A stretch of DNA of 20,642 nucleotides from a virus, in the IMG/VR virus record IMGVR_UViG_3300030101_003504, positions 1-20,642 of that record; one strand, written 5' to 3'. A program made the translations under genes and the position numbers. Shown one piece after another: positions 2,760 to 20,642 of this stretch. The stretch's first letter is position 1; each line of letters begins with the position of its first letter. The notes under the pieces were generated by a model. It searched no databases. It was not told where the DNA came from and saw only the letters and a program-made list of their open reading frames with translations.

Positions 2760-3016
2760 TGCCTGGACAATACACAAAATCATTAAAGAAAAAATTATTA
2801 AAGAAACCTGATTCTATTAAACCGAAATTAATAAAAGTTATCAAACATATTGAAATTGAGCCTGACACCAACCGATTTAAGATAGACATACCAAAAAAAA
2901 GGGAGCCAATAGAGTATATAAAATTAAAAAAGAAGAAAAAGAAAAAAGGTAAAGAGGCTGCAGTTATATCGAATAGATTAAAAAGGATGAAAGAAGGAAG
3001 CTTGTATACCAAATGA
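2759..3016 (+). CDS. Small lysine-rich protein (85 aa)
   Basis: No recognised family. The protein is strongly basic: almost a third of residues are Lys, with clusters near residues 9-15 and a run of seven lysines in KLKKKKKKKGKEA near residue 60. A less basic middle (IEIEPDTNRFKIDIP) could form strands. The start shares one base with the portal stop, and the end overlaps the next gene by ATGA. It has no cysteines, signal or membrane segment. Its charge would suit binding to DNA, RNA or acidic capsid/scaffold surfaces, but that is inference. It is the first of five consecutive tiny basic genes. Confidence 0.75.
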   Translation: MPGQYTKSLKKKLLKKPDSIKPKLIKVIKHIEIEPDTNRFKIDIPKKREPIEYIKLKKKKKKKGKEAAVISNRLKRMKEGSLYTK

Positions 3017-3282
3017 GTCAAGCTTGGACCAGGAAAGAAGGCCAGTCTAAAAGTGGTGGCCTAAATGCAAAGGGTAGAGCCAGTTACAATAGAGCTACAG
3101 GAGGAAACCTAAAAGCACCTGTAACAAAGAAAAATCCTAAAGGTAAGGCAAAGGCTAGAAGAAAAAGTTTTTGTGCTCGTATGTGCGGAATGAAAAAGCG
3201 TTTAACTGGTGCAAAAACCGCCAGGGACCCAAACAGTAGAATCAATAAGGCATTAAGAAAGTGGAGGTGTAAGTGTGGCTAA
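3013..3282 (+). CDS. Small basic DUF6321-like protein (89 aa)
   Basis: The sequence follows a pattern I associate with the DUF6321 family of phage and environmental proteins. An N-terminal WTRKEGQSKSGGLNAKGRAS is followed by LKAPV, then RRKSFCARMCGMKKRLTGAK, then ARDPNSRINKALRKWRC. The function of that family is not established. It is Lys/Arg-rich. Four cysteines (Cys54, Cys58, Cys86, Cys88) are spaced CxxxC and CxC, which could bind a metal, although the conserved family pattern as I know it needs only some of them. It overlaps the preceding gene by four bases (ATGA), and its end overlaps the next GTG start. Genes of this kind are often found near terminase and portal genes in marine phages. 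Confidence 0.78.
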   Translation: MSQAWTRKEGQSKSGGLNAKGRASYNRATGGNLKAPVTKKNPKGKAKARRKSFCARMCGMKKRLTGAKTARDPNSRINKALRKWRCKCG

Positions 3283-3768: not shown

Positions 3769-4668
3769 ATGTCAGATGAAGTACTCACCAGTTATTCTGG
3801 TGTCACGCTTTCTCAAGATGAAGCAAACTCCCTTATGGGGGTTGAGCCTAGTCAACCTGTAGAGCAAAATAACGAGGGTACAGAAGTTCAACCCCAGGAT
3901 AGCGAAGTCTCAGAGAAGGACCAATCACTTTCTGAAAATGAACCTACAACAGAAGCAACTGAAATAGAAGTTCTTGAGCTTGATGGTCAGCAGTATGACA
4001 TGGAACAACTTCAAGAAGCTATTGATGCCTATAATAATAAAAGCGAATGGCAGAAGACGAATACTGAAAAGTCACAAGCTATATCAGCAGAGCGTAAAGC
4101 GTTTGATGCTGAAATAAAAGTTTGGAACGACTTGCGAAATGACGAAGATGCTATGAGTGCATTAAGAGACGTATTGGATGCAGACCATCCAGTCTTTTCT
4201 AATGAAGTTGCTGTAGCGGAAGAAGAACCAACCCAGGACACGAAGGAGTCTAGTGATAGAATCCAGGAGTTGGAAGAAAGGTTAAACGAGATAGTTCAGG
4301 TAAAAGAACAGGAAACACTTGACATGGAAGCCGATAGACAAGTGAATTCCGACCTGGCGAGTCTCAAACAAGAACATCCCGAACTAGAGGACCAGGAATT
4401 GATGGATGAAGTGATTACCACTGCCATTGAAAAAGGCTTTACTGGCCGACAGGGTTTAGAGGATGCCTTTGTTTTAGCCTATCATTCAGCATCTGAGAAC
4501 AGTGCTTTTAAAACCGCAGTAAATCGAGCGAGAAGTGCAAAAGCTATGAAGAGTATACCTGAAACAGAAGGTAACGTAAAAGGCCAACATACTGAGCCAG
4601 TTACAAAAGCCGAGAGTTATAAGGAAGCTAGGCAAGATGCACTTAAAAACTACAACTTCTACGAATAG
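3769..4668 (+). CDS. Scaffolding protein
   Basis: 299-aa acidic protein directly before the major capsid gene, the standard place for an internal scaffold that shapes the procapsid and then leaves it. The first ~70 residues are low-complexity and Glu/Gln/Ser/Thr-rich (disordered). A short ordered segment follows (EVLELDGQQYDMEQLQEAIDAYNN), close to the YDMEQLQEAxxxY motif often seen in podovirus scaffolds. Helices with coiled-coil character come next (residues ~85-200; SSDRIQELEERLNEIVQVKE), and then a C-terminal helical region ending in a mixed-charge tail (KAESYKEARQDALKNYNFYE) that may contact the coat. There is a good ribosome site, AGGAGA at 3755-3760, 8 nt from the ATG. It is first in the block after the promoter-like element. 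No protease motif was seen. Confidence 0.85.
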   Translation: MSDEVLTSYSGVTLSQDEANSLMGVEPSQPVEQNNEGTEVQPQDSEVSEKDQSLSENEPTTEATEIEVLELDGQQYDMEQLQEAIDAYNNKSEWQKTNTEKSQAISAERKAFDAEIKVWNDLRNDEDAMSALRDVLDADHPVFSNEVAVAEEEPTQDTKESSDRIQELEERLNEIVQVKEQETLDMEADRQVNSDLASLKQEHPELEDQELMDEVITTAIEKGFTGRQGLEDAFVLAYHSASENSAFKTAVNRARSAKAMKSIPETEGNVKGQHTEPVTKAESYKEARQDALKNYNFYE

Positions 4669-6032: not shown

Positions 6033-6689
6033 ATGACATCAACAGAAATGACAACACTACTTGGTCTTCGATTAGAGGATACAGGAGAAGTAAATTTTTC
6101 ATCAGCAACAAAACTAAGTGCACTAAATGTTGCACAGAGGAAGGTTGCAAGTTTTTTAAATGAGCACTATCTAACTGAATTAGAGGTAACCGATTCGGTT
6201 ACAACTAACAACTCAGGTATAACCCAGGGATTTGTAGAGTTAGGTGGTGGAGGTACAAATAAAACAACAAATGTACCCATAAGAAATAGTATAAGAAATG
6301 TAGAGATAGCATACAGTAATGGTGCTGCAATATTCGCAATCTTAATTCCTTTCCAGGATGTTAAAAAATTAGAGAATTCGTATTTAAGTAGTGGCAGTGC
6401 AAACCCTGTTGCTTATGTGTGGAGTGGTAAGCTGTATATAAAACCAATGACAAACATGACGAGTCTTGTAGTGTATTACTTAAAGGAACCACCAGACATT
6501 GCAAGTGATGCTAATTGTAGCTTAAATGATTCCTTGCATGATATTGTAGTAGACCTGGCCGAGTCAGAATTATGGAGAATGGATAATAATGCGACCAGGA
6601 GTCAGGGTGCAAAAGAATCTGCTATGAATCAAATCCAGGCATTGAATGCTAGGTTTGAATTAGAAAAACCAACGGAGGTAGGTGCATGA
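6033..6689 (+). CDS. Head-tail adaptor (connector) protein, first copy
   Basis: 218-aa protein placed where podoviruses encode the ring that joins portal to tail. The N-terminal helix (TKLSALNVAQRKVASFLNEH) is followed by a beta domain (FVELGGGGTNKTTNVPIRNS, then IRNVEIAYSNGAAIFAILIP). Next is the signature YVWSGKLYIKP...LVVYYLKEPPDI (residues 128-156) and a long C-terminal helix (DSLHDIVVDLAESELWRMDN). The helix plus LYIKP...VYYxKEP pattern is that of phage adaptor proteins of the DUF6682/gp4-like kind, known to me by style only. The next gene has the same layout. No good ribosome site precedes the ATG: the nearest, AGGGA at 6014-6018, is 14 nt away and is locked in the hairpin stem. A stop codon at 6027-6029 rules out an earlier start. 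Confidence 0.7.
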   Translation: MTSTEMTTLLGLRLEDTGEVNFSSATKLSALNVAQRKVASFLNEHYLTELEVTDSVTTNNSGITQGFVELGGGGTNKTTNVPIRNSIRNVEIAYSNGAAIFAILIPFQDVKKLENSYLSSGSANPVAYVWSGKLYIKPMTNMTSLVVYYLKEPPDIASDANCSLNDSLHDIVVDLAESELWRMDNNATRSQGAKESAMNQIQALNARFELEKPTEVGA

Positions 6690-7651
6690 ATTGGGCAACC
6701 TTAATAGATAGGGCCTTAGTTCCTTTTGAGGGTAGAACAGGTCAATTAGATACAAGAGTTGGAAAGTATTTAGATGAAGCTCAAGAAGATTTTAGTTTAT
6801 ACACAAAATGCTATGTAAGAAAATTTAATATTTATATTAGTAGTAGTAAAACATATGTAGAACTTCCAGATGATTTTGTAGAGATGGTTGATTCTCCTAT
6901 TTACAGAGGTGAGTACTTATCGCAACGTACAAGCAACGCTTTTCTATATAATCAAGATACAGATACGAATCTGTATAATCAAGGCACACCCTGCGAGTAT
7001 TACCTAGAGGACCGGAGGTTGCATTTAATACCAAGGCCAACACAAGCCGGAGTATTAACGCTTACCTATGTTGCAGTGCCCACTAGCCTACGCTCTAAAA
7101 CAGGTATGAAAAAGTTAAGGTTTGACAGATTAGTATCTGAATTTTTTAGAGTTGGTAATATTATTAAATCAAGAGCTACTACCTATGGAATTGTATCTAC
7201 CAACTCAGTTGCCACAATTGAAAGAGCAGACCATTTTGAACCCAAGGGAGGAATGCTTGTTATTTCAAATCTTACCAATGGTTTTACGACTGACAATGAA
7301 GATTTTTTTAGTTCATCGGATGCCTCAAACTTTTACGAAAATTTATATAGCACAAGTTGGGATAATATATTAACTACCTGGAATAATTTAGGATTTGGTG
7401 GTATTGCTACTGTAAACGGTAGCCAATTTGATTTTACTGAAGTAAAGCCAATCATACCTGATGTATATCACTATTTTCTTGTAGACTATGCCAAGGCAAT
7501 GTTGCACCAGGATGTTGGCAATGGCAGCGAATATCAAAATCATTATACCGTTTATCTAGCCAATAGAGAAAAGGCTAGGACAACAGTTGCGAATGCTGAC
7601 GTTGGTGGTATGTCGTATGTTTCAGATAGAGTAGGTAGCGGTGTTTATTAA
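6686..7651 (+). CDS. Head-tail adaptor / tail tubular-A-like protein, second copy with insertion
   Basis: 321-aa virion protein in the collar or tail-tube position. It begins with a helix (QLDTRVGKYLDEAQEDFSLY), then TYVELPDDFVEMVDSPIYRG (residues 56-75), the classic LPDDFxE motif of phage adaptors. The segment EYYLEDRRLHLIPRP...LTLTYVAVPTSL follows (104-135) and corresponds to LYIKP...VYYLKEPPDI in the previous gene. The expected C-terminal helix appears only at ~256-300 (PIIPDVYHYFLVDYAKAMLH). About 110 residues (~140-252) are therefore inserted compared with the upstream copy. The ribosome site GGAGGT (6674-6679) is excellent. The start overlaps the previous stop (ATGA), and the stop overlaps the next start (TAATG). 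Confidence 0.75.
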   Translation: MNWATLIDRALVPFEGRTGQLDTRVGKYLDEAQEDFSLYTKCYVRKFNIYISSSKTYVELPDDFVEMVDSPIYRGEYLSQRTSNAFLYNQDTDTNLYNQGTPCEYYLEDRRLHLIPRPTQAGVLTLTYVAVPTSLRSKTGMKKLRFDRLVSEFFRVGNIIKSRATTYGIVSTNSVATIERADHFEPKGGMLVISNLTNGFTTDNEDFFSSSDASNFYENLYSTSWDNILTTWNNLGFGGIATVNGSQFDFTEVKPIIPDVYHYFLVDYAKAMLHQDVGNGSEYQNHYTVYLANREKARTTVANADVGGMSYVSDRVGSGVY

Positions 7652-10293
7652 TGAATATAGTAATCAATTCATTTAGTAATGGAATCGCAACAAATGTTGA
7701 CCCGAATGATTTAAATAATAAATTCGCTGTAACTACTCAAAACTTTCTACTGGACCAACCAGGTAGACTGGTAAAAAGACCAGGGCGAACTGCAACCGTA
7801 ACAATAAACTCATTATCATTTACAGATGTAAAGTACTGGTCCCCTAGCAATCTTAAAATTAATGGTACAGCCATTGATGATAAATGGATTGGCTACGATG
7901 GTGTAGTCAAAAAATTAGTTTTTACCCCTTCCAACATACTAGGTGGCGTTACCCCTACTGCATTAAGCAGCAGTGCCTATTCTTCTAATATACCAACTGA
8001 TTTCGACTTACAGGACCACGGCACTGAATTTAGAATGGCTCCTAATAATCTAAATCATGGACCAAAAATACTACAACATATTAGTAGAAACTTTTTTAGC
8101 GGTAGTTATAGTGTAGATGAGTTTGTGTTTCAGGATGCATTACTTCCTAAGTCTTCAGATATTAATTTTGTATCGCTATCAGAGTCTGCATCTGCATCTG
8201 GCTTTGAAATGACTAATGGTCAAACTAATACATATAAACTTAATGCAGTGTATGATGGGATTCAGGAGTTACCATTGAATACTTCAAGTAAGTCAATTAC
8301 AACTACTAATACCAATAGAATGAATCAGATTAAGTTTACGTTGTCTGCATCAACTTCTGGTACAGCACCTAATAAAACATATGGATTTAATCCCAGGATG
8401 ACTGCTGTAAAGATATATCGTGAGACTTCTAATAGTGGTACATATTTTCACATTGGGACCGTACCAATTAATACAAAAACTGGAAATGATAATGTATTAC
8501 CTAGTACAACAACTTATAAAAAAGGTATTGAAGCTGTTTATGCTGATTCTTTTATAGATGACTCAGCTAATTTAACCGCTAGTGGTGCAATATTTGCACC
8601 ATTTGATTGTGGTGCTACAGGAGACCCTAGCACTACGACTGTTAGTATATTTTATTATATTTGTAAAAAGTCAGATTCTCTCGTTAATGATGCGACTAAT
8701 TTTGGTGCTGTATTGACTAAAGGTCATCCGATTTTTGCAAAAATAAATCAAGGAACATCTTCAAATGTGACTAGTACGCCATCAACAGACAGTACATTTG
8801 TTTCTAATTTGCAAAACGGTATAATTAATACAGTTACGGTTGATAGTTTAGTATCTACAGGTCACACTCCTGTAGATTTTTTTAATGAAGAATGTGTAAT
8901 AGTAATAATCAAAGGGTTATCTACCGTTGACCCAGTATCAGGACAGACTAGTCATACATTTAGTGTTGTAGACTCATTTGATATTGCGATTGGTTCCTGT
9001 CATTCAAAACAAATAGTGTTTCACACTAAATCTAATAATGAATTATTTAGTACAGGTGAGTTTAATGGTGGTTTTTTAGTAAAAGGTAATAATCACAATT
9101 TAATACAGGATACTGTAGGCAAAGCAGTTTTAACAAATAACCCTACTTCTGGTTTTGGCAATGCAGCAGTACAAATATTTAAAAGTTATATAGAGCAATA
9201 TGCAACTAATACTGCAACATATTTCTTTTATGATATAGGATTTACATCAGGTGCACAGCAACCCTACGTTGATGATGCAAAGGTAAGAGTTCATTATAAG
9301 TTTAGCCAAATGTTAAATGACAGGTTGTTTGTTGGTAACGTAAAGCTTGACCCTGATGTTGATAATGAGGACCACCCAGACTGGCTAATATACAGTGAGC
9401 CTGGAATGCCAGATGTATTACCTATTGTAAACTACATTCAAATTAAGGACCAACAAGGTGGTAAGATGATGGCCCTTAATAAGTTATTGGATTCCCTGGT
9501 TGTATTTATGTCTAGAGGTACATTTAGATTAGATGTTAATTCTGTTGGTGACCCCTCTAGTTGGCAACTTATGGAATCAGAAAGACACATAGGGTGTGTT
9601 GCAACAAAGGGCGTAGTAAACATAAAGGACAATCTATTCTTTTGTAGTCAGGATGCTGTATATCAAATTACGCCAGATTTCAGATTTACCCCTATATCTG
9701 AACCAATAAAAGATGTATACCAGGCTAGTACTAACAAACAAAATAGTAGACTAATGTATGATGTTAAAAGGAATAGGCTGTTGTGCAGATTTGGTGATGT
9801 GATAGATACAATATATGCTTATGACCTTATATCGAATGGTTGGTCCACTATAAAGTTTAACTCTTCTGCATCTAGCTTTTATAGTATTGATGACACACTA
9901 GATGTCTTTGGTTTTTTTAATATAACCCCACAAGTAGGTGCACCAACAAATTGCGAGATACATCGCATTCATCAATCAGGTTCAAGCGAAAATATGGAAG
10001 TCGTATATGAAACTGGATTTACAAATGTCACCAAAATGGATATTAATACTATTGTTAGAAGAGTAAACCTTAATTATGAATCATCTTCAGCACTTACCTG
10101 TAAGGTGTATACAAATGGTGACAACACAACAGTGAGGGGTACGTTGACGTTCCCTGCTAACAATTCTTCTAAAAATTATTTAGTTAGTATTAGGCCAACT
10201 GGGATTAGAGCCAAGTCTATAGCATTAAAAATATCTGCAACAACCAGTGCAGAAGTAAAAATAAATAAAGTAGAGATAGAAACAGATGAGTAG
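7651..10293 (+). CDS. Tail hub / nozzle protein (T7 gp12- or P22 gp10-like, beta-propeller type)
   Basis: 880-aa structural protein. The N-terminus (FSNGIATNVDPNDLNNKFAV, then FLLDQPGRLVKRPGR at residues ~32-46) is the typical opening of podovirus nozzle or stabilisation proteins, which start with a 'QNxxxDxxGxLxKRPG' strand. The region ~608-695 (LLDSLVVFMSRGTFRLDVNS, DPSSWQLMESERHIGCVATK, DNLFFCSQDAVYQIT, FTPISEPIKDVYQ) matches the propeller blades I associate with T7 tail tubular protein B and P22 stabilisation proteins. The middle (~170-560) is Ser/Thr/Asn-rich and beta-like and makes the protein long. It sits between the adaptors and the internal proteins, as the tail nozzle gene does in T7-type phages. 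Translation is coupled by TAATG. Fold assignment is by motif recognition, not alignment. Confidence 0.75.
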   Translation: MNIVINSFSNGIATNVDPNDLNNKFAVTTQNFLLDQPGRLVKRPGRTATVTINSLSFTDVKYWSPSNLKINGTAIDDKWIGYDGVVKKLVFTPSNILGGVTPTALSSSAYSSNIPTDFDLQDHGTEFRMAPNNLNHGPKILQHISRNFFSGSYSVDEFVFQDALLPKSSDINFVSLSESASASGFEMTNGQTNTYKLNAVYDGIQELPLNTSSKSITTTNTNRMNQIKFTLSASTSGTAPNKTYGFNPRMTAVKIYRETSNSGTYFHIGTVPINTKTGNDNVLPSTTTYKKGIEAVYADSFIDDSANLTASGAIFAPFDCGATGDPSTTTVSIFYYICKKSDSLVNDATNFGAVLTKGHPIFAKINQGTSSNVTSTPSTDSTFVSNLQNGIINTVTVDSLVSTGHTPVDFFNEECVIVIIKGLSTVDPVSGQTSHTFSVVDSFDIAIGSCHSKQIVFHTKSNNELFSTGEFNGGFLVKGNNHNLIQDTVGKAVLTNNPTSGFGNAAVQIFKSYIEQYATNTATYFFYDIGFTSGAQQPYVDDAKVRVHYKFSQMLNDRLFVGNVKLDPDVDNEDHPDWLIYSEPGMPDVLPIVNYIQIKDQQGGKMMALNKLLDSLVVFMSRGTFRLDVNSVGDPSSWQLMESERHIGCVATKGVVNIKDNLFFCSQDAVYQITPDFRFTPISEPIKDVYQASTNKQNSRLMYDVKRNRLLCRFGDVIDTIYAYDLISNGWSTIKFNSSASSFYSIDDTLDVFGFFNITPQVGAPTNCEIHRIHQSGSSENMEVVYETGFTNVTKMDINTIVRRVNLNYESSSALTCKVYTNGDNTTVRGTLTFPANNSSKNYLVSIRPTGIRAKSIALKISATTSAEVKINKVEIETDE

Positions 10294-10550: not shown

Positions 10551-11096
10551 ATGAGTGCACTTTTAAAGGGATTGCAAATGGCAGCACCAACTGTAATTAA
10601 AGGTTTTGAAGCAGGTAGAAGGTTATTTGGTGATGTGCCACAAATGAAAACTAGTAATGACACAACCAGGTATCTTAACAGGCTAAGACAAGTGAGTAAA
10701 GAAGGCTTGTATGGACAGGATGTTAAAAATGAAATTGGTGCAGATATACAACAGTCTAGTCAAAATACTCGTAGTGCTATAAGAGGAAGTGCGGTCAGGC
10801 AAGGATTGGAAAACAGTGGTGTAGTAGCACAACAGCTATTAAAAGAAGGTGGGCAGACTACATTGCAAATAGCCAGGACTGCTAGAAAAATAGCAGAAAT
10901 GAATAAGGAAAGTCAACTAAGGGCATCTGCAAATGCAGCAGCAGTTGGTCAAGGAATTGAAGATAGAAGATATCAGAATGCTTTATCGAGAATGCAAAGA
11001 AGGGATGCAGGATTAAGTATGTTGTCAGGTGTATTTGATGATATTGGTGAAGTCCCCTTTGACCCAGAATCACTAGTAGACGATTTAATGAGCTAA
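10551..11096 (+). CDS. Putative internal virion / ejection protein A (181 aa)
   Basis: Alpha-helical protein, rich in Ala, Gln, Arg and Gly, with no recognised catalytic motif. Residues ~60-140 form long amphipathic helices with small residues (SSQNTRSAIRGSAVRQGLEN, then SGVVAQQLLKEGGQTTLQIA and IAEMNKESQLRASANAAA). This is the style of small podovirus proteins placed between the tail nozzle and the large internal proteins (T7 gp14, P22 gp7). It is the first and smallest of three consecutive genes of increasing size, as in the T7 gp14-gp15-gp16 series. The conclusion that it is packaged and ejected with DNA is inference from order and composition. It starts four bases after the previous stop, with no strong ribosome site. 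Confidence 0.6.
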   Translation: MSALLKGLQMAAPTVIKGFEAGRRLFGDVPQMKTSNDTTRYLNRLRQVSKEGLYGQDVKNEIGADIQQSSQNTRSAIRGSAVRQGLENSGVVAQQLLKEGGQTTLQIARTARKIAEMNKESQLRASANAAAVGQGIEDRRYQNALSRMQRRDAGLSMLSGVFDDIGEVPFDPESLVDDLMS

Positions 11097-11113: not shown

Positions 11114-11950
11114 ATGAGTTATTTAGATGCACTAAAACGTAATGCAAAAGGTAGAGAGTCTGAATTTATTGAATCTGATATTAGTCAACCTTCAGAAAGA
11201 AAAAAACGTGCCCAGGAAAAATACAATAGGTTAACGCCAAGTCAAAAAAGGCAAGTAGATAAAATAATAAAAGCTAGGAAGTCTAGAAATCCTCAAGATG
11301 CCTTAGTTAAAGAACAAGATGCTAGAAACGAATCACAGCAAAGAATGATGAGTCGTTTAGATAATCTAAATAGAAAAAGCGAACTTAAAAGACAAGAAGC
11401 CGAAACTCAAGCTATTGAAAAACAAAGAAGAAAAATAAGACTTGCAGAACAAAAAGTAGAGTTTGACAAAGCACAAGAAAGACAAAAAGTTGCAGATGCT
11501 AGGGCAAAGATTGACCCAGACCAAACTGCTGATGAATATTTTGATTCCGTTCAACAAGGTGAGATAGATATAGAACAAGCTGAATTTGACAGAGATGAAA
11601 CGATTAGGAAAGCTGAAGAGAAACTAAAAGGAGAAAAATTACTTTTCGGTAACCCAAGAATTAATAGAGAAAGTTTAGGTAAAGGAAGCCAGGAAGATTA
11701 CGATAAGGAAGAAAGAGAATTTAACGAAGCAATGGAACCTATAAGAAGAACTGCAAATATGCAGTACGATAGGAAGGTAAAAACTATAGAATTACAAAAT
11801 AATGCTTTAATAAGAAAATTGATTAAAGAAACTGTCAACAAGTTTGAGACCTTTGAAGAAGCTCAAGATTATTTTAGAAAAACTGGTTTAGAACGTGAAT
11901 TATCTAGAGTATTAAATGAAGATGCAAGAAGAAGAGGTTTTGCACCATAA
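11114..11950 (+). CDS. Putative internal virion / ejection protein B (278 aa, coiled coil)
   Basis: Highly charged helical protein dominated by Lys, Arg, Glu and Gln. There is a continuous heptad-like stretch at ~residues 70-135 (RMMSRLDNLNRKSELKRQEA, QAIEKQRRKIRLAEQKVEFD). A second helical region follows at ~150-250 (EFDRDETIRKAEEKLKGEKL; RRTANMQYDRKVKTIELQNN). No signal, membrane segment or enzyme motif is present. It lies between the 181-aa gene and the 2105-aa giant, so the natural reading is the middle member of an internal core or ejection complex. That is inference; a structural spacer is the alternative. A fair ribosome site (AAAGGAAAG) precedes the ATG. The stop is followed by only two bases before the giant gene. 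Confidence 0.58.
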   Translation: MSYLDALKRNAKGRESEFIESDISQPSERKKRAQEKYNRLTPSQKRQVDKIIKARKSRNPQDALVKEQDARNESQQRMMSRLDNLNRKSELKRQEAETQAIEKQRRKIRLAEQKVEFDKAQERQKVADARAKIDPDQTADEYFDSVQQGEIDIEQAEFDRDETIRKAEEKLKGEKLLFGNPRINRESLGKGSQEDYDKEEREFNEAMEPIRRTANMQYDRKVKTIELQNNALIRKLIKETVNKFETFEEAQDYFRKTGLERELSRVLNEDARRRGFAP

Positions 11951-11952
11951 CC

Positions 11953-14900
11953 ATGAGTTGGATAAAAAAAGCACAAGAGTTTTATCTTAACAATCCTGTA
12001 CATCTACAAGAAGAAGTAGAATCAGAAATACCTACAACTACTGTAGTTGGCGATACGTTAGTAGATACAATTATTAATAGTGGTGAGACTGGACCAGTAG
12101 AGCCAGAAGATAAGTTCGGAAACCCTAAACAATTATCTACTATTGCCAGGCTTAGAAAACAGGGTTATGACAATTCTAGAATTTTTGATGCTATGGAAAT
12201 AGAATCTTTTGAGGCTGAGTCCTTAAAAAATACTATGCCAGATATCAAAGGCCAGGGAAAAGAATTTATTGGTTCTCCAAAAAGAGATAGAGGCACATTT
12301 GCAAAATTTAGAGAACGATTTAGTCGTGCAAGGCGTAATTCAAAATTAGACCAGTTATATTATTTATCTGCAAACGAATTTCCAGGAGCACCGCCCCTGG
12401 ATGACGTTTTAGAAATTATAGAGGAATTTGAAGAAAGGTCTCAGTACGACCCAGTAGAGGCAGATAATTTTCTTGAAGATATATTATTAGCGACTGGTGA
12501 CGTTGCAGGTAGTCTTGCACTTGGATTTGAGGAAGGTGGTAAGGGAGCAGTAGCAGGTGCTACAGGAGCTGCAGCAGCAGGAATGACAGTAGCACCAATG
12601 TTTGCAGAAGAAGTATTTACTGTACCTGCAGCAGCCGGGTTAGGATTTATGACAGGCTCTACAATATTTTGGGCACAGCAAGGTTCAGGTATGGTTATGA
12701 GAAATCTTGTAGAAAGAGGGGTTGACCCTATGACTGCCGGTTTTGTTGGTACTCTTGCAGGTATACCATATGCTTTTTTAGAAAGATTGCAAGTAACAAA
12801 ACTCATACCAAAATCATTACAAAATAAATTTAACAATAAGGTAAGCAGTGAAGTCGCTAAATATATACCAAAATTAATAGCTAAATATGGCCCAGATTAT
12901 GGTTCTCAAATTGTCCAGGAAGATTTGCAGTTAATTACCACTACCATAGCTGAAGAGTTAACGGTTGCAATGCAAGATGCGGATATACCTCAAAAGACTA
13001 TTGACCAATTTTTAGAAGAATTAAAAGAAACCACTTTTCAAACAGCTAAAGGATTTTTACTGTTACAAGGTGGACGAGCTGCAGTAGATGTAGGCATTGA
13101 CAAGTTATCCAAGCCACAAGACTCCAAGCCACAAGACATTGTTGCAGGTTTAAAAGAATCACAAAAGCAAATAGAGACTCAGCCATTAATTACAAAAGAA
13201 GAAGCTATTACAGTAGAATCCCAGGCAAAGCAAATTACAGATGATGAGGCCAATGATTTCAATATTTCCTATGACCGAGATGTAACCGGAAGTCGGGAGT
13301 TATCTGAAGATGAAGTTTTAGAAAGTGGATACAATATAGATTTAAATGAAATACCAATATCAAGAGAGGATGAAAATGGAAACAAATTCTATGCAGTCAA
13401 AGTTAAAGGGGAGACAGATACTGAAGGCAATATACGACTCACCAGTGCAGCGGATAGAAGCACAATTCTCGAAGAAACAATCGAAGCCAGATTCAAAAAA
13501 CTCCAAAACTCAGAAAATGCCGAAGATAAAGCCTTAATTGACAAAATCAAAATTTGGATGCAATCTGTCAGAAAAAAAGCCTCAGAAATGGGCCTAGAAA
13601 TCCGTTTCTCTGATACAGGCGAGGGTAACATCGAGTTATTTTCTGATGCGATTCTATACACGATAGGCGGCTTTAAAGGACTAGACAAAAAATTTGAGGA
13701 TGCAATTTACGTTCCAGAGGACATTTCTAGTGAATTTGTAGAAAAATTTGGTGAAATGAGCGATGGGACCAGTGTTTTTGAATTATTAAAAGGTTTAGAT
13801 AAAGGAATCCAGGCTAATCAAGAATTTGCAACTGCAGTTGATGCAGAGATTGCAAGTCAAATGGAACTACAAGCAGAAAAAATAAGACCTCCACCTTCAA
13901 AGCCAACTACGAAATCTAAATTATCTACACAAACAGAATCTGGCAGTTTTCAACTTGTGCCAGATGTAATTAATAAAGCTGTTTCTATATATCCTGATGT
14001 TTTAAGTGACAAGAAAAAGTCAGACCGACTTAGGCTAACTGTCAATAGAAGAGAGACAAACCCAATGACTGGCAGTCAAAAAAATGACAGAAGGGTGTTC
14101 AATCTTAAAAATGGTGGTGTTATGGTCCTGGGTAAAGATAAAACTCCAGAAGATTGGATAATGCAGGTAGAGAGCGTGTTAGACCAAAGTGAAATACAAG
14201 ATGCAATGAATTGGTATGAAGATGCATACCCTGCATTTGTTGAAGAATTTGGAGAGGCTGAAGCTGTTAATTATATGGTTGCCTGGTTATTAGGTAATGT
14301 ACAAGCAAGTCCTCAACAGGCGTTGTCAAATACATTTCTTGGGATGGAACAATTAAAAGCAGAGTTACCATCCTTTAAGTCGGCAGGTACTAAGTCTGTA
14401 GCAAAAAATATAAAATCAGCATTGCAAGACCAACAAACAGAAAAAGGTGCAGGTGCTAAGTTGTATGACTTTTTAGATAGTGCACTAGGTAAACTTACTC
14501 GGACCATTATGCAAGATGATGAAAGGGGCCTTGCACCAGTTGCTATTGATAGACATACATTTAGAGATGCAGGTTTTGTAGATGCTACACTAATAAATAT
14601 CCTATTAGACCTAGCTGAAGATGTTGATGCTGTTAATGAATTAATTTTTGACCAAAAAGGTTCATCACCTTCAGATACTCAATACGAATATGCAGTCAAA
14701 TATATGAATGATTTAACTGATAACTTAAATAATATGGGATACATGGGTGGTAATCTTAGACCTCATCAAGTTCAAGCTATAGGATGGACCGCAATTGCAA
14801 GAATGTCTGAAACATCCGAAGGTCAATCAATACCTGATGCACTTGGATTGCAAAAACCAACACTAGCATTTGAATTAAAATTTGGAAAGTCTAGTCCTTA

Positions 14901-17900
14901 TGCTGCAAAGTACGGAGATGCATTTACCGATTTGTCTCGACAAGAACAAATTGATTTAACGTCCAAAGCTACAAAAAGTATAATACCAGAACTTGCAAAA
15001 GAATTAGGTTTAAAAGTAAATAATGTATCTGTAGGCGGTTATGGATTTTGGAAAGATGGTGCTGCACCAAATGGAGCAATTAGTGTTAGGGGTAGCAATC
15101 AGGCTATAAGAGCTTTAATGAATAGCATTGGTTATTTATTTCAACAAGAAGAAGTAGGACGTATAAACAGAGCACCTAATCTTAAAGGTTTAGGTGTAAC
15201 ATATTCTGATGATAAGCTATCTGACCCTGATATGCAACAAGCGGTATATAGAATATTAAGAGCGGAAACGGACAATGATTTTACACCTGGTGCAGTGTAT
15301 GAAATTGTTGACGGTAAACCATCTTTAGTTGTTAGTACGTTTATTGACCAAAAAGACTTAAATACTTATATACCGGGTTTGGAATCGGCAATAGAAAGAA
15401 TTAGGACAGAATTAGGAATAGATTTAGATTCCGATGGTTCTATAGATTTTATAGGAAGTAAATATGAAGCAACAAAAAACAACTGGAAGAAAAACAATAG
15501 TGGTGAACGGTATCGAAAGGCGATTCAAAAAACCCACAAGCTCAGTTTACAAAAACGCCTCGACAATTATTATGGGCCAAAACTCGATGGAATCATTGAA
15601 TCAGCTCTCGCCAAAAAGTCAGAACAGCAAAAACGAACCAGACAATTAATCCCCGACCCTGATTTCGCTGCAGAAGTCAGGTCCTACGAAATAAAATCAC
15701 AAACTGCCCTTACTGAAGAAGATTTTCAGGCTTCGGTAGCTAGGCTTTTGCATGACCGCCTTGGTCCTGTCATGCGATGGCAAAAAGACATATCGGAACA
15801 ACAACTTGGTGGTGCTAGAATAAGGAATTCCAGGGATGTTGTTCTAGCATCTGAATTATTTATTGGGCGTGTTTCAGAACGTCTAAAAGATTTTAATAAA
15901 AAAATGATTAACCACACTAACCCTGATAGCTTTGTATCCAGGTTAATCGCTGAAACAGGTATATCCTTAGAAGAATTTGGTTTATATCTCCACGCTTTAC
16001 ACGCTGACGAAAGAAATATAAAAACTGAAAAAGAGGATGGTAGTGGCCTCACAAAAAAACAAGCTGCTAAGATAAAAGCCGATTTAAATAAAAAGTATGG
16101 TTTATCAACATTAAAAAGGTTTGTCAAGGAATTCCAAACAGAAGTTATAGATGGTGATGTTAAGATTCGATATGAAGCAGGTCTAATTGATGAAGCAACA
16201 TTTAATAGATTTATGGACCGAAAAAGTGAAGGTAATTATAAAAACTATGTACCTTTATTTAGAGTATTTGATAACCAGGAATCTGTCATAGATGATGCTG
16301 CGAAAGGCGTAAATAAATTTAGTATTCGTGGTAAGGAATATTATAAAGCTGTTGGTTCCGCAAGAAAGGTTAGAAATCCATTTATTGGAGCCTTGGAACA
16401 GTATCACCAGGCTATAGTAAGGTCCGAAAAAAACCTTGTAAATAAAAGACTTGTAGACTTGATGGAGTCATACCCTAGTGATTCCTACTATATAGAAGGC
16501 GTACCGTATCAACCAAACTACAACAAGGATGGAGAAATAGATTATTATTCAGAAGTATCGGGACGTGACAAAGAAGGTAACCCATTAAATGAAAAAAATA
16601 CTATTACTGTAAAAGTTGATGGTAAAGTTAAACGATTGATTTTCATGGGTAAAGAAGGTGTTGCAATAGCATCAGCTTTAAATGGTTTAAATAATCACTC
16701 ACCTGGTTCAGGTCTTAAATTGCTAGGGAAATTAAATACATATTTAAGATATGTAAACACTATTGCCAATCCCGAATTTATCGTAACAAACTTTACCAGA
16801 GATATACAATCTGCAGGTATTAATATAGCTAGTGAGCAAGGTGATGCAGTTCTTGTCCAGGCATTAAGTCCAACCAATCTACAAAGGTCATGGAAGGCTG
16901 TATATGATTTGTTACAAAATGATGATTTAAATAATGAATGGGGTGACCTGTATAATAGATTAAGAAGGGCAGGGGGCACTACAGGATTTTTTGACTATAC
17001 AACCCTGGAAGAGAAGGTAGGTAATTTAGAAAAAGATTTAAATAGAGTAGAAAGTACTGGTAGGGGTATTATAGATACTGGTAAATCTATTTTTAATTTT
17101 ATAGAAAACTTAAATGAAGCTACAGAATCAGCTATACGTCTATCATTATTTAAAGCAATGCTTGACCAGGGTTATAGCGAACAGGAGGCTGCTAGTGGAG
17201 CAAAAAACGTCACTGTTAATTTCAATCGAAAGGGTGAATATGGTCAACTATTAAACACTTTATATCTTTTCGCAAATGCAGGTATTCAGGGTAGTGTAAG
17301 AGTGTTAGGTGTTGTTAAAAATTCTAAAAGGGCACAGAAGATTGTTGCAGGTTTAGCAGCAATGGGAGTTATGGAAGCTTTTTACAACCGCATGGCAAGT
17401 GACGATGACGAGTATGACAAACAATTAAATTATGAAAAAGATAATTATTTCATATTCAGATATGGCCGTGATAAAGAATATTTTAAAATGCGACTTCCAT
17501 ATGGATACAATGTTTTTAAAGTCATGGGAAATATTGCAGGTGATATTGCCTGGAAAACTATGAGTCAAGAAGCTGTCCAAATGGATAAAGAAATATTAAG
17601 ATTTTTAAATGCTTGTAATAATGCATTTAACCCAATTGGTAGCGGAGATTTACTACTTACACTTTCGCCTACTTTTGCTGACCCAATCATAGAGTTAAGC
17701 GAAAATAAAGATTTTCATGGTGGACCTAAAATGCCAACAAAACCATACGGTCCAGATATAGCTGATATACAAAAGTCCTGGGAAAAAACACCGAATGCTT
17801 ATAAAGATTTTGCATATTTTGTATATAAAGCTACAGGTGGTCAAATTAGATACAATCCAGATGGAACGATAAAAAGCACTAAAAAGGGTCCTGGAGTTTT

Positions 17901-18270
17901 AGGAATTGATGGTGACATTAGTCCCGAAACCTATCAATATATTGTTGAGTATATGGGAGGTGGTTTAGGCAAAAGCGTAGCTAGATTGTTGAATACGACC
18001 AGGGATGCTGTTAATTATAGTGCAGAATGGGACAAAGCACCATTTATTAGGCAATTGTATGGCGAATTTAAGAAAGACTCCGGTAAACAAATTTTGTACG
18101 AATTTGAAAGAAATATGGCTAAAGAGTTGTATAGTGATGCCGAAAGACTAAAGTATAGAAAATATTTACAAGATTTAAAGGATAATGGGCAAATAACACC
18201 AAATGAGTTTAAAGAAAGAATAAAGAAATTTAATCAAGCACAAAAAACTTTAATGACGGATTTCTACTAA
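11953..18270 (+). CDS. Giant virion protein with polyvalent-protein (LPD38-type) features (2105 aa)
   Basis: Largest gene in the window, about 31 % of it. N-terminal ~175 residues: charged. 179-275: Gly/Ala-rich hydrophobic segments (AVAGATGAAAAGMTVA) that could enter a membrane. ~735-1115: region beginning MNWYEDAYPAFVEEFG, with GAGAKLYDFLDSALGKLTRT, RDAGFVDATL and SPSDTQYEYA. I recognise it from other giant phage proteins (DUF7178-like). ~1268-1435: DRLGPVMRWQ, FGLYLHALHADERN and NYVPLF. ~1475-1800: the LPD38-type segment (NPFIGALEQYHQAIVRSEKN, NPEFIVTNFTRDIQSA). The C-terminal ~300 residues resemble the usual LPD38 ending. There is no obvious lytic transglycosylase, peptidase or polymerase motif. 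Its place after two internal-protein genes suggests the T7 gp16 position: packed in the head and ejected into the host. The ribosome site is weak (AGAGG, 15 nt away), so coupling is likely. Two internal patches have different codon use. Confidence 0.72.
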   Translation: MSWIKKAQEFYLNNPVHLQEEVESEIPTTTVVGDTLVDTIINSGETGPVEPEDKFGNPKQLSTIARLRKQGYDNSRIFDAMEIESFEAESLKNTMPDIKGQGKEFIGSPKRDRGTFAKFRERFSRARRNSKLDQLYYLSANEFPGAPPLDDVLEIIEEFEERSQYDPVEADNFLEDILLATGDVAGSLALGFEEGGKGAVAGATGAAAAGMTVAPMFAEEVFTVPAAAGLGFMTGSTIFWAQQGSGMVMRNLVERGVDPMTAGFVGTLAGIPYAFLERLQVTKLIPKSLQNKFNNKVSSEVAKYIPKLIAKYGPDYGSQIVQEDLQLITTTIAEELTVAMQDADIPQKTIDQFLEELKETTFQTAKGFLLLQGGRAAVDVGIDKLSKPQDSKPQDIVAGLKESQKQIETQPLITKEEAITVESQAKQITDDEANDFNISYDRDVTGSRELSEDEVLESGYNIDLNEIPISREDENGNKFYAVKVKGETDTEGNIRLTSAADRSTILEETIEARFKKLQNSENAEDKALIDKIKIWMQSVRKKASEMGLEIRFSDTGEGNIELFSDAILYTIGGFKGLDKKFEDAIYVPEDISSEFVEKFGEMSDGTSVFELLKGLDKGIQANQEFATAVDAEIASQMELQAEKIRPPPSKPTTKSKLSTQTESGSFQLVPDVINKAVSIYPDVLSDKKKSDRLRLTVNRRETNPMTGSQKNDRRVFNLKNGGVMVLGKDKTPEDWIMQVESVLDQSEIQDAMNWYEDAYPAFVEEFGEAEAVNYMVAWLLGNVQASPQQALSNTFLGMEQLKAELPSFKSAGTKSVAKNIKSALQDQQTEKGAGAKLYDFLDSALGKLTRTIMQDDERGLAPVAIDRHTFRDAGFVDATLINILLDLAEDVDAVNELIFDQKGSSPSDTQYEYAVKYMNDLTDNLNNMGYMGGNLRPHQVQAIGWTAIARMSETSEGQSIPDALGLQKPTLAFELKFGKSSPYAAKYGDAFTDLSRQEQIDLTSKATKSIIPELAKELGLKVNNVSVGGYGFWKDGAAPNGAISVRGSNQAIRALMNSIGYLFQQEEVGRINRAPNLKGLGVTYSDDKLSDPDMQQAVYRILRAETDNDFTPGAVYEIVDGKPSLVVSTFIDQKDLNTYIPGLESAIERIRTELGIDLDSDGSIDFIGSKYEATKNNWKKNNSGERYRKAIQKTHKLSLQKRLDNYYGPKLDGIIESALAKKSEQQKRTRQLIPDPDFAAEVRSYEIKSQTALTEEDFQASVARLLHDRLGPVMRWQKDISEQQLGGARIRNSRDVVLASELFIGRVSERLKDFNKKMINHTNPDSFVSRLIAETGISLEEFGLYLHALHADERNIKTEKEDGSGLTKKQAAKIKADLNKKYGLSTLKRFVKEFQTEVIDGDVKIRYEAGLIDEATFNRFMDRKSEGNYKNYVPLFRVFDNQESVIDDAAKGVNKFSIRGKEYYKAVGSARKVRNPFIGALEQYHQAIVRSEKNLVNKRLVDLMESYPSDSYYIEGVPYQPNYNKDGEIDYYSEVSGRDKEGNPLNEKNTITVKVDGKVKRLIFMGKEGVAIASALNGLNNHSPGSGLKLLGKLNTYLRYVNTIANPEFIVTNFTRDIQSAGINIASEQGDAVLVQALSPTNLQRSWKAVYDLLQNDDLNNEWGDLYNRLRRAGGTTGFFDYTTLEEKVGNLEKDLNRVESTGRGIIDTGKSIFNFIENLNEATESAIRLSLFKAMLDQGYSEQEAASGAKNVTVNFNRKGEYGQLLNTLYLFANAGIQGSVRVLGVVKNSKRAQKIVAGLAAMGVMEAFYNRMASDDDEYDKQLNYEKDNYFIFRYGRDKEYFKMRLPYGYNVFKVMGNIAGDIAWKTMSQEAVQMDKEILRFLNACNNAFNPIGSGDLLLTLSPTFADPIIELSENKDFHGGPKMPTKPYGPDIADIQKSWEKTPNAYKDFAYFVYKATGGQIRYNPDGTIKSTKKGPGVLGIDGDISPETYQYIVEYMGGGLGKSVARLLNTTRDAVNYSAEWDKAPFIRQLYGEFKKDSGKQILYEFERNMAKELYSDAERLKYRKYLQDLKDNGQITPNEFKERIKKFNQAQKTLMTDFY

Positions 18271-18889: not shown

Positions 18890-19774
18890 ATGGCAACATG
18901 GAAGAAAGTGCTAACCGAGGCACAAATAGATACAGATACAGCGTTTGGAAGTGCTTCTGATGCATTAGTTCCATCGCAATTAGCAGTAAAAACATATGTA
19001 GATGCCCAAGTAGATACAGCAGATACTTTAGCAGAATTAGGAGATGTTAGTGCAAGTAGTCCTGCACAGGGTCATGTTCTTGTATTTGATAGTCCAGAAT
19101 TTACAAGCAGAGCAATTACTGGTGATGTTGCACTTAATGCAAGTGGTGCAGTAACAATTAATAGTGATGCAGTTACATATGATAAAATACAAGATATTGG
19201 AACGGCAAACAGAGTACTTGGTTCTACAGGCACAGGAACAGTTGGTGAAGTTCAAGTTCAAACTGCTATGATAGCAGATGATGCAGTTACTAGTGCTAAA
19301 TTATCTGATAATATAGATATAGCAGGTACATTAGATGTTACAAGCACAGCTACTTTTGATGCTGATGTTGCTATATTAGGTAAACTTACAATGACTGGCG
19401 ATATTGATACAGTGAGCGTAACAGACCTTGATGTTGCTGATAAAACTATAACTCTTGCTAGTTCTTCTTCAGCTTATTCTGACCAAGCTACTATGTTAAC
19501 TGCGACTAACGGTGCAGGTATAAGACTTCAAAATCAATATTCTAGCGGTAGTGCAACTACTTCTCAAGATGCTATGTCTGCATCACTTACTTGGGATAAA
19601 GATGCAGGATTATCTGGATGGAAAGCAAAAAACTATACTGGTACTGCAAATGCTGTTCCAGTTGCACTTATGGATTTTAAGGCAGATACTGGTGAACCTA
19701 CAGGAAATTCAGGTGGAGTAGGCTCTTTTACTTATAATACTTTTGATGACGAACTATATATAAGGACAGCTTAA
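18890..19774 (+). CDS. Tail fibre protein (294 aa)
   Basis: Begins MATWKKVLTEAQIDTD, an N-terminal start shared in part with the fibre gene at 20083 (MPSWKKVVLAKG), probably the part that docks to the tail. It continues SQLAVKTYVDAQVDTADTLA, a coiled or trimer-forming segment, then Ala/Thr/Ser/Asp/Gly repeats characteristic of marine phage fibres (GDVALNASGAVTINSDAVTY; SAKLSDNIDIAGTLDVTSTA; ADVAILGKLTMTGDIDTVSV). The C-terminal globular part includes MTLT-like strands and SFTYNTFDDELYIRT. There is no chaperone or lyase motif. The ribosome site AGGAG (18878-18882) is good, 7 nt from the ATG. The stop overlaps the next start (TAATG). Confidence 0.78.
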   Translation: MATWKKVLTEAQIDTDTAFGSASDALVPSQLAVKTYVDAQVDTADTLAELGDVSASSPAQGHVLVFDSPEFTSRAITGDVALNASGAVTINSDAVTYDKIQDIGTANRVLGSTGTGTVGEVQVQTAMIADDAVTSAKLSDNIDIAGTLDVTSTATFDADVAILGKLTMTGDIDTVSVTDLDVADKTITLASSSSAYSDQATMLTATNGAGIRLQNQYSSGSATTSQDAMSASLTWDKDAGLSGWKAKNYTGTANAVPVALMDFKADTGEPTGNSGGVGSFTYNTFDDELYIRTA

Positions 19775-19941
19775 TGTCAAAGTTGGTACCTGCAATTAAG
19801 AAAAAAGAGTTTACTATTAAAGAAACTGATTTTTTGCTAAAGCTAATGATGAAGTCATCATTTGATGGCGTTGAATTAGATGTGGCTCACAGTGTATTAA
19901 TGAAACTTACAGAAATACATAAGGCTAAACTTGAGAGTTGA
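19774..19941 (+). CDS. Tiny hypothetical protein between fibre genes (55 aa)
   Basis: ATG at 19774 shares one base with the fibre stop; TGA at 19939-19941. The product is MSKLVPAIKKKEFTIKETDF followed by LLKLMMKSSFDGVELDVAHS and VLMKLTEIHKAKLES. The 'EFTxKExxFLLxLxxxSxFxGxExxVxxxxxxKL' layout is one I recall from short conserved genes in marine phages, where it is found next to fibre genes. Its function is unknown. It is predicted to be helical, with no signal or membrane segment. It is too short for many gene callers. Confidence 0.65.
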   Translation: MSKLVPAIKKKEFTIKETDFLLKLMMKSSFDGVELDVAHSVLMKLTEIHKAKLES

Positions 19942-20083
19942 ACTATCAACAGATGATTTATCTGTAATAAAACAAGCTTTAGATAATTTAACAATCCAGG
20001 GCAAGGATGCTCACATTATTGCAAAGCTACTAGACAAGATAGGAAAAGCATTTTCAAAAGCAGTAGAAAAGGAATCTAAATAA
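19931..20083 (+). CDS. Tiny hypothetical protein between fibre genes (50 aa), TTG start
   Basis: The frame LRVELSTDDLSVIKQALDNL, then TIQGKDAHIIAKLLDKIGKA and FSKAVEKESK, is open up to the TAA at 20081-20083. I choose TTG at 19931: AAGG lies 6 nt upstream, no in-frame ATG exists, and the product then begins with the 'xVxLxxDDLxVIxxAL' pattern that I recall from short helical marine-phage proteins. It overlaps the previous gene by 11 nt and the next fibre start by one base (TAATG). Its function is unknown. An earlier non-ATG start cannot be excluded. Confidence 0.6.
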   Translation: MRVELSTDDLSVIKQALDNLTIQGKDAHIIAKLLDKIGKAFSKAVEKESK

Positions 20084-20642
20084 TGCCTAGTTGGAAAAAA
20101 GTAGTATTAGCTAAAGGAACTAGTTCTCAATACATCAAAGGTGATGGTACGTTTGCTACGTTTACAGACAGTTTACCTTTGACTGGTGGTACAGTTACTG
20201 GTGATGTGCTTACTACAGGAAAGTATCAGATTAGCAACTCTACTCCTGAATTGTTATTTTCAGTACCCGGTGGTGGTTTAGATAGTAGAATACATAATGA
20301 TGGTTCTGGTAATTTAATTTTTGGTAATGGTACAAATTCTAATACGCCTACAGAAGCAATTCGTATAGACTCCAGTCAAAATACTACTTTTTCTGGTACT
20401 ATAGCTCTTGCAAACAATAAATCAATAAATTTTGCAAATACAAGTGGAACCGAAAAAGCAATTCTTTCTGTAGACAATTCAAACATTACTAAACTTGGAG
20501 ACAATAGTAGTAGTGGGGTCTTAAAATTAAATGCAGGAACTGCTACCTTTTCTGGTGATGTTAATATTGCCACTGGAAAAACTCTAACCTTTACACCTCC
20601 TGTTTTTACAAGTGCAGTGCAAGGTATAAAATTTGATGATGG
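20083..20642 (+). CDS. Tail fibre protein, 3' end cut by window (186 codons visible)
   Basis: The start at 20083 overlaps the previous stop, and the frame stays open to the window end. The N-terminus MPSWKKVVLAKG, then QYIKGDGTFATF, resembles the start of the fibre at 18890 and typical marine phage fibres. Next come DSLPLTGGTVTGDVLTTGKY, TPELLFSVPGGGLDSRIHND and SGNLIFGNGTNSNTPTEAIR, a repeat style (LTGGTVTGDV; EAIRIDSSQNTTFSGTIALA; SGDVNIATGKTLTF) common to receptor-binding fibres and fibres with C-terminal autochaperone domains. The C-terminal part is missing, so a peptidase_S74 or other tip domain cannot be judged. Confidence 0.78.
   Translation, partial: MPSWKKVVLAKGTSSQYIKGDGTFATFTDSLPLTGGTVTGDVLTTGKYQISNSTPELLFSVPGGGLDSRIHNDGSGNLIFGNGTNSNTPTEAIRIDSSQNTTFSGTIALANNKSINFANTSGTEKAILSVDNSNITKLGDNSSSGVLKLNAGTATFSGDVNIATGKTLTFTPPVFTSAVQGIKFDD

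Follow-up and report, generated by a model that had tools for sequence, protein, structure and literature searches.

What does a protein of 2105 aa do in a podovirus when its gene adjoins the tail genes, and what takes up its length? The question is raised by the window analysed here (20,642 nucleotides, IMG/VR virus record IMGVR_UViG_3300030101_003504), in which the open reading frame at 11953-18270 starts with ATG and runs for 2105 aa with 0 internal stops. The original prediction, made from the sequence alone, had read its product, P0001, as an LPD38-type protein in the ejection-protein position, and overall that reading is partly supported. The protein and the parts into which we divide it are as follows.

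11953..18270, plus strand: giant LPD38 protein P0001, 2105 aa (open reading frame, Pfam, relatives L002 and L003)
11953..12399, plus strand: N1, residues 1-149 (HMM built from six relatives)
12400..13182, plus strand: GA module, residues 150-410, a membrane-prone part rich in Gly and Ala (profile matches, hydropathy)
13183..13899, plus strand: M1, residues 411-649, conserved N-side flank of the cargo slot (relatives' profiles)
13900..13944, plus strand: empty cargo slot, residues 650-664 (relatives' fillings, junction DNA in L002)
13945..15684, plus strand: M2/M3, residues 665-1244, conserved C-side flank of the slot (profiles, hhalign, model)
15685..18267, plus strand: C-terminal carrier module, residues 1245-2105, with LPD38 at 1818-2032 (Pfam, PHROGs, model)

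The LPD38 domain that had been claimed was readily confirmed by profile search, with PF18857 matching residues 1818-2032 (E 4.2e-25; 89.4 bits against a Pfam cut-off of 27) and the 215 matched residues spanning positions 1-189 of the profile in full. P0001 belongs with the LPD38 family both by this match, which lies above the curated cut-off across the whole profile, and as a large phage protein encoded downstream of portal, capsid, adaptor-like and nozzle-like genes. LPD38 is the sole Pfam domain above cut-off; no enzyme domain was recognised, and neither ART-PolyVal (PF18760) nor a T7-like RNA polymerase domain gave a Pfam match at E up to 1. The "polyvalent-type modules" of the original prediction are thus represented by LPD38 but by no second domain above cut-off, and P0001 falls outside the definition of a polyvalent protein, which asks for disparate biochemical activities from at least two domains of one chain. 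Its relatives include L002 (95% identical; dN/dS 0.15-0.27 depending on the part) and L003 (58% and 49% over two aligned pieces), and a more distant one, L015, carries both an ART-PolyVal and a GNAT match exceeding their cut-offs. It had also been remarked that no enzyme motif explains the size of the protein. No enzyme was recognised, but the length is that of a chassis (N-terminal Gly/Ala segment, M1, M2/M3 and LPD38 module) mostly common to the relatives, rather than that of an unrecognised enzyme motif.

This chassis ends in a conserved C-terminal module. The module, which the 3912-aa giant of the cultured environmental relative Ruegeria phage 45A6 also has, is the last element in 85 out of 85 open reading frames with a stop codon that were checked, its match ending 1-218 aa from the stop, and the conserved unit measures ~860 aa as against the 189 positions of the Pfam LPD38 profile; PHROGs 14770, 616 and 10691, whose functions are unknown, cover residues ~1220-2086. 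Domain-wise structure prediction, proposed as a check on the original reading, yielded a confident fold here (pLDDT 86, pTM 0.86). With E at 0.001 or better, the model resembles 81 predicted structures of viral proteins and nothing in the PDB (best 0.51), a second structural comparison reached Z scores of up to 6.3 confined to the terminal helical stretch, and the best profile match among PDB sequences had an E value of only 0.23. The absent PDB match is no demonstration of a new fold.

At the other end, N1 is present in each of the remaining 14 readable family members, and at E below 0.3 no giant scanned outside the family matched it. The membrane-prone Gly/Ala segment predicted near the N-terminus is real as a Gly/Ala-rich stretch (~residues 184-245), but it is only moderately hydrophobic, the best 19-residue Kyte-Doolittle means being 1.33 (at 200) and 1.41 (at 221); a third peak (1.28 at 1770) falls inside the C-terminal module. 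AlphaFold2 confidence is low over most of the GA module, and the GA profile found no notable match in the PDB. The GA module is fast-diverging, matching weakly in L098 and L112-L114 (E 2e-5 to 5e-4), and it recurs near the N-terminus of otherwise unlike giants (L030 at E 1e-37; L039 and L041 at E ~5e-4). An early Gly/Ala or hydrophobic peak was seen in 46 and 48, respectively, of 54 LPD38 giants as against 18 expected under uniform placement, the set comprising open reading frames, the window's included, with start and stop and at least 1000 aa ahead of the module, some of them near-identical. The Gly/Ala part is also matched weakly (E 1e-4) in the unannotated record of phage zth2-2.

M1, the N-side flank of the slot, matched no known family and contains a conserved LEE(T/A)(I/V)E stretch. 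An HExxH motif occurs no more than 700 aa ahead of the module in 32 of 72 giants, as against 0.94 expected by shuffling; this set, in which some proteins are near-identical, was drawn from beyond the near family and limited to giants with 300 aa or more before the module. The idea that M1 is a degenerate metallopeptidase was dropped, because profile comparison with 54 HExxH windows gave a probability of 4.1% at most, with 1.9% in 61 controls. For DUF7178 (PF23802), a profile search of which had been proposed, Pfam gave P0001 no direct hit at E up to 1, but M2/M3 (window residues ~689-1245) can be aligned by profile to a block of L054 that contains DUF7178 (hhalign 99.1%), most clearly in the M3 part beyond the DUF7178 match itself, and appears to be distantly related to that block. 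Neither the PDB (no notable match) nor GTDB contigs (55 stretches fitting a pattern, 0 confirmed as relatives) yielded further relatives to the M2/M3 profile. M3 (~residues 958-1168) is modelled as a double ferredoxin-like arrangement; Foldseek gave no match to this model at E up to 0.001, and its likeness to RND pump porter domains (Z ~10 over ~175 residues) was taken as that of the common arrangement and not as kinship with RND pumps.

Between these flanks the family members differ in kind. In most relatives an ADP-ribosyltransferase (ART) is inserted between window residues 649 and 665, a fixed slot that occurs with three kinds of filling and in an empty state. The 15 readable members, counted after entries repeating the same contig (L012, L090 and others) had been merged by contig name and without L108, which ends within the Gly/Ala part, include 3 with an empty slot (the window, L002 and L112), 10 with one ART, 1 with two unlike ARTs (L104) and 1 in which a GNAT-like stretch accompanies the ART (L113), the GNAT-like stretch lying below the Pfam cut-offs (17.5 of 20.7 bits and 16.9 of 27 bits). 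Many contigs of the family are fragments, and the ten one-ART members are not all independent because several are near-identical or close (L014/L095/L107 and L013/L096). The empty junction is in frame and nearly identical in DNA between the window and L002. Across the 11 ART copies compared, the H and D motifs are kept in every one and the closing KS motif, as searched, in 10. An anti-defence or takeover function carried by P0001 itself, as had been suggested, is not borne out, since no such enzyme is recognisable in it and the slot holds an ART only in relatives.

The fillings have a history of their own. L003 and L092 share 84.9% identity in the N-part and 95.9% in M2/M3 but only 37.1% in the ART, and conversely the L113 ART and the second ART of L104 are 70.0% identical between flanks that share just 41.0 and 49.9%. 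In control pairs the ARTs keep pace with their flanks (L013/L014/L096, ART 87.6-98.0% and flanks 90.6-98.2%; L011 and the second ART of L104, 70.6% with flanks of 72.0 and 70.7%), and therefore ARTs do not simply evolve faster. The trees are likewise discordant: by ART, L092 groups with L098/L114 (99/97) and L113 with L011 and the second ART of L104 (100/99), whereas by chassis L003 groups with L092 (100/100) and L112 with L113 (99/99), in an analysis in which long branches meet and the deep forks of the chassis trees stay open. Two other trees disagree on the position of the window clade, and L112 is also empty, so that ART gain and loss may have occurred in either order. Between the window and L002, dS reaches 0.63 at residues 665-960, while the part ahead of the slot gives 0.042 and the C-terminal module 0.041, which points to import beside the slot. 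Judged from these comparisons, cassettes have evidently been exchanged independently of the chassis. An exchangeable slot in LPD38 proteins was not found among the literature titles and abstracts searched, a scope that excludes most subscription journals and preprints.

The gene order around P0001 bears on how it might be used. Its gene comes after a co-directional series that begins with a nozzle-like gene (880 aa) and continues with genes for proteins of 86, 181 and 278 aa; fibre-like genes follow the giant.

7651..10293, plus strand: nozzle-like tail protein P0002, 880 aa (named by gene position)
10551..11096, plus strand: putative small ejection-series protein P0009, 181 aa (conserved series)
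11114..11950, plus strand: putative ejection-series protein P0010, 278 aa (gene position)

This series is kept in 7 of 7 near relatives, the nozzle-like gene being two adjacent genes in six. P0002 matched no family in Pfam or PHROGs. P0009 is 50-82% identical in all seven near relatives, and nothing matched it in 8 LPD38 loci of more distant relatives, in phage records or in the PDB. P0010 is fast-evolving, and its BLAST matches are limited to L002 (81%) and a weak one to L104 (25%, E 0.002), with a gene of 239-264 aa in its position in the other five. Neither protein has a Pfam family at E up to 1 or a PHROG match better than 0.07, and six homologues or same-place genes from relatives reached 0.015 at best. 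The gp14-gp15-gp16-like series of the original prediction therefore holds as gene order, but the likeness seen is one of position, the Pfam, PHROG and PDB searches given here having shown no relation in sequence to known ejection proteins; it is from this order that an ejection series may be read.

Evidence for packing comes from DarB-like giants of Bcep22-like podoviruses, which like P0001 are giant late proteins with a C-terminal LPD38. One of them, JC1 gp69, differs from P0001 in its 4515 aa (LPD38 at 4195-4401), and in its transglycosylase-like, methylase and helicase matches. It has been found in virions, with 51 unique peptides in CsCl-purified particles (PMC9144972). Giants of the JC1-related phages BcepIL02, DC1 and BcepMigl match the C-terminal module (E 2e-40, 1e-39 and 5e-36; ~26% identity, in that module), JC1 gp69 itself standing outside this alignment. 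By homology with this giant, whose place in virions has been published, P0001 is likely to be packed, and its ejection into the cell would follow the same reading.

Taking these lines together, we consider it probable that P0001 is a virion-carried, ejected delivery chassis with an exchangeable effector slot that is naturally empty in this phage. Late in infection the C-terminal LPD38 module would position the giant in the head, close to the portal; on infection it would exit with the DNA, its N-terminal Gly/Ala segment engaging or crossing the inner membrane, and in relatives the ART held between M1 and M2 would be exposed to the host cytoplasm. With its slot empty the giant may do structural work only, such as aiding DNA entry, or may represent an unarmed state of the locus.

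Another account, which we regard as unlikely, takes the giant for a purely structural ejection protein that does the work of T7 gp16 or P22 gp16; the ART would then be a passenger, present now and then in a loop that tolerates it, and would have no function on delivery. It agrees with the persistence of the empty form, frame intact, in three members, with the purifying selection between the window and L002, and with the conserved place adjoining the tail genes; however, an ART is present in 12 of 15 members with its motifs retained, and cassette exchange together with the addition of an unlike second ART suggests selection on cargo. Enzyme-like domains also occur beyond the family: 38 giants outside it (E up to 0.001) all carry LPD38, with ART-PolyVal in 9, RadC and LPD1 in 5 each, ddrB-ParB and GNAT-type domains in 3 each, and helicase, methylase, InPase and PBECR in one or two. 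A large scaffold-like morphogenesis protein, made late and not ejected, is quite improbable; it suits the late-gene position, and ejection is a prediction for this family, but JC1 gp69 stays in purified virions (PMC9144972) and a scaffold has no evident use for enzyme cargo. We give very little credence to an unpacked early effector whose gene merely lies among late genes, for although its cargo types are typical of host takeover, the conserved series and the virion location of JC1 gp69 (PMC9144972) speak against it. That the empty slot is a mis-joined contig is scarcely credible even for metagenome-derived fragments, given the same in-frame junction in near-identical DNA on the separate contig of L002 and the separate empty case of L112.

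Polymorphic toxins likewise join a constant delivery part to exchangeable toxin tips, but in the delivery chassis proposed here the part that changes lies inside the chain, and a phage protein serves as the vehicle. Whether LPD38 giants form a general protein-delivery system of short-tailed phages, in which a C-terminal carrier and a membrane-prone N-part bracket the slot and effectors are swapped by recombination in the M1 and M2 flanks, seems to us an evenly balanced proposition; if true, the window phage as a natural empty vehicle would show cargo and vehicle to be separable. Phage proteins that enter with the DNA act ahead of most defences, and one defined cargo position (empty, single, double or mixed) makes the idea of injected polyvalent proteins testable as carrier, cargo and cargo change, with the natural empty form as the control that experimenters want.

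P0001 resembles the described LPD38 polyvalent proteins in its full-profile LPD38 and late virion genes, and their ART-PolyVal combination recurs in its relatives, while P0001 has no enzyme (Iyer et al. 2017, PMC5512222). In the portions of that survey available, polyvalent proteins did not fit a scheme of constant parts with variable toxin ends, and a fixed slot with cassettes exchanged between near-identical chassis was not found (PMC5512222). The N4 virion RNA polymerase, with an N-terminal injection region, a middle enzyme and a C-terminal encapsidation region (PMC5512222, in part), is like the giant in layout only, P0001 having no RNA polymerase domain and no sequence relation to it that we found. 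Mx9 and Mx8 rank among the best phage matches to the window's major capsid protein. Unlike the window phage, the Mx8/PhiGT1-like short-tailed phages have no LPD38 giant in the available portions of their description, and the window's two adjacent SU10-adaptor-like genes recall the dual tubeA layout given there (PMC10386132).

Where the LPD38 giant of the window (2105 aa, encoded at 11953-18270 on the + strand) runs from residue 649 to residue 665 through a short linker, the related locus L003 carries an ADP-ribosyltransferase (ART) domain (ART-PolyVal, E = 3.5e-20). We could read this slot in 15 members of the near family, counted by contig and found by scanning with the M2/M3, Gly/Ala and M1 parts (L108, whose sequence ends before the slot, stands outside the count). 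It is empty in 3 (the window, L002 and L112), holds one ART in 10 (L003, L011, L013, L014, L092, L095, L096, L098, L107 and L114) and two ARTs in 1 (L104), and in the remaining member, L113, contains a GNAT-like stretch (residues 671-806, short of Pfam's cut-offs) in tandem with an ART. The ten one-ART members are not ten independent cases, since L013 is close to L096 and the trio L014, L095 and L107 is near-identical. The pairing in L113 has a parallel, as the more distant giant L015 has both an ART and a GNAT match exceeding cut-off.

Pairwise identities and trees show, at the level of sequence, that ART cassettes have been exchanged in this family's slot. Identity between L003 and L092 is 84.9% ahead of the slot and 95.9% beyond it, but only 37.1% in the ART. 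In the control pairs L013/L014, L013/L096 and L014/L096 the ARTs (87.6-98.0%) and flanks (90.6-98.2%) are comparable, as they are between L011 and L104 (ART 70.6%; flanks 72.0 and 70.7%). The reverse case is that of L113 and L104, whose flanks are 41.0% identical on the N-side of the slot and 49.9% on the C-side, while the L113 ART is 70.0% identical to the second ART of L104; the latter is not a recent duplicate, because the two L104 ARTs are only 30.9% identical to each other. In the ART tree L092 joins L098 and L114 (support 99/97) and L113 joins L011 and the second L104 ART (100/99), whereas in the chassis tree, which carries a long-branch warning and leaves deep forks open, L003 joins L092 (100/100) and L112 joins L113 (99/99). 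Other trees place the window clade among ART carriers, differently by protein part: with L011, L104 and the L013 group for the Gly/Ala-M1 region (92/91), and with L003 from M2 to the end (94/95).

The empty junction is common to the window and L002, and the DNA across it is nearly identical. Synonymous divergence (dS) between these two giants is 0.042 before the slot, 0.041 in the C-terminal module and 0.63 in residues 665-960; this tract (window 13945-14832), adjoining the slot, thereby stands at 15 times the outer parts. Across 60-residue windows from 661 to 960, L002 is nearer to L003 than to the window giant in 4 of 5 (at 661-720, 83% versus 65%), the exception being 781-840. Because of this jump in dS and the mostly greater nearness of L002 to L003, either the window or L002 probably imported the stretch next to the slot. 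The dN/dS ratio of 0.15-0.27 in all parts is consistent with a functional giant.

The C-terminal module of the protein covers residues 1245-2105. LPD38 was the only Pfam match to the giant exceeding its cut-off, and in a whole-giant search every match began at or after residue 1245 (among the 40 listed of 147 matched records); two plasmid records were also matched by the whole protein. A search with just residues 1-1246 drew three weak matches (E = 1e-4, 0.5 and 0.9), and one with just the module hit 150 phage records (E up to 0.001), including those of Vibrio (105), Bacillus (13), Escherichia (10) and Burkholderia (8) and Stx-converting phages (6). A profile built from eight such module-bearing proteins confirmed at least 568 stretches in IMG/VR, and the 80 best loci were retained. 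The module is the final element in all 85 stop-bearing ORFs, its match ending 1-218 aa short of the stop; ORFs with both start and stop (n = 69) span 1022-4180 aa, with 122-3276 residues preceding the module. Its AlphaFold2 model is confident (pLDDT 86, pTM 0.86; 55 sequences) and had 81 matches among viral predicted structures and none in the PDB at E up to 0.001. As the whole module recurs, ends ORFs and is confidently modelled, Pfam's LPD38 (189 positions) is one part of a larger C-terminal unit.

The N-terminal 1244 residues, scanned with HMMs from the six nearest relatives (E-values refer to small sequence sets), divide into parts with differing histories. The Gly/Ala part (150-410) is matched in L030 (E = 1e-37) and, weakly, in L039 and L041; M2/M3 (665-1244) recurs in L048 (M2, E = 1.6e-33) and partially in L054, where DUF7178 directly precedes the M3-like part and the DUF7178-containing block aligns with the M2/M3 profile at 99.1% probability. 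Matches to M1 (411-649) were confined to the near family among the scanned relatives. For residues 130-1245 the predicted structure has poor overall quality (pLDDT 57; 14 sequences), M1 and M3 reaching fair confidence.

Among 38 giants outside the near family (20 + 18; E up to 0.001, some matches short of Pfam's cut-offs) LPD38 was found in 38, ART-PolyVal in 9, RadC and LPD1 in 5 each, LPD5, LPD3, ddrB-ParB and GNAT-type (Acetyltransf_7) domains in 3 each, ResIII and DUF7178 in 2 each, and InPase, PBECR5, MuF-C, a zeta-toxin-like match and others in one each. In 46 of 54 giants the peak Gly+Ala stretch before the module fell within the first 600 residues, as did the most hydrophobic 25-mer in 48 of 54 (18 expected for each under uniform placement). 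These early peaks, the varied cargo and the constant LPD38 support, on sequence grounds, a common layout of membrane-prone start, variable middle and constant end. An HExxH motif lies up to 700 aa before the module in 32 of 72 LPD38 giants (0.94 expected); its sequence contexts differ, so more than one peptidase-like family is probably represented.

Iyer et al. 2017 (PMC5512222) proposed that polyvalent proteins are injected, named LPD38 as confined to phage-type ones, and had polyvalent proteins depart from the organisation of secreted toxins, in which constant parts are joined to variable toxin ends. The window's LPD38 family does resemble that scheme, with the slot being internal. Neither the slot nor its exchange in LPD38 proteins was described in the papers reached by our literature search, which covered few subscription journals.

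Layout, slot and exchange are shown in the window's family. In the proposed mechanism the C-terminal module would pack the giant into the virion, the Gly/Ala part would contact the membrane, and the ART would act in the newly infected host; in the window's phage the ART step would be without a visible agent. In PMC9144972 a related giant, gp69 of the Bcep22-like podovirus JC1, was detected in virions by 51 unique peptides, and the paper's tables place LPD38 at 4195-4401 of gp69 and give gp69 79% identity to the Bcep22 homologue. Sequence search with the C-terminal module matched the giants of BcepIL02, DC1 and BcepMigl, JC1 gp69 being tied in through the published tables.

The window is a 20,642-base fragment and makes up all the sequence of its virus record. 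Its genes, all on one strand, comprise a terminase fragment, a portal of SU10/P22 type, a major capsid protein whose best phage matches include Mx9 and Mx8, an adaptor-like pair, a nozzle-like gene, small proteins, the giant and fibre-like genes. Those leading to the giant are:

6033-7651, + strand, two adjoining adaptor-like genes with SU10 adaptor likeness
7651-10293, + strand, nozzle-like protein of 880 aa
between the nozzle-like gene and the giant, + strand, small proteins of 86, 181 and 278 aa

The SU10 adaptor matches of the adjoining pair (Pfam E = 9e-6, slightly short of cut-off, and 1e-12) recall the dual tubeA layout of PhiGT1. The single 880-aa nozzle-like gene corresponds to a pair of genes (751-769 and 120-137 aa) in L003, L011, L013, L014, L096 and L104. 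In L002 an open ORF spans residues 308-880 and crosses the joint of the relatives' two genes; apparently, the single gene is a fusion common to the window and L002, both with empty slots. Between the portal and capsid genes, positions 2759-3282 encode a pair of small and very basic proteins of 85 and 89 aa, and the two fibre-like genes at 18890-20640 both start with a similar WKKV stretch, perhaps a common attachment end.
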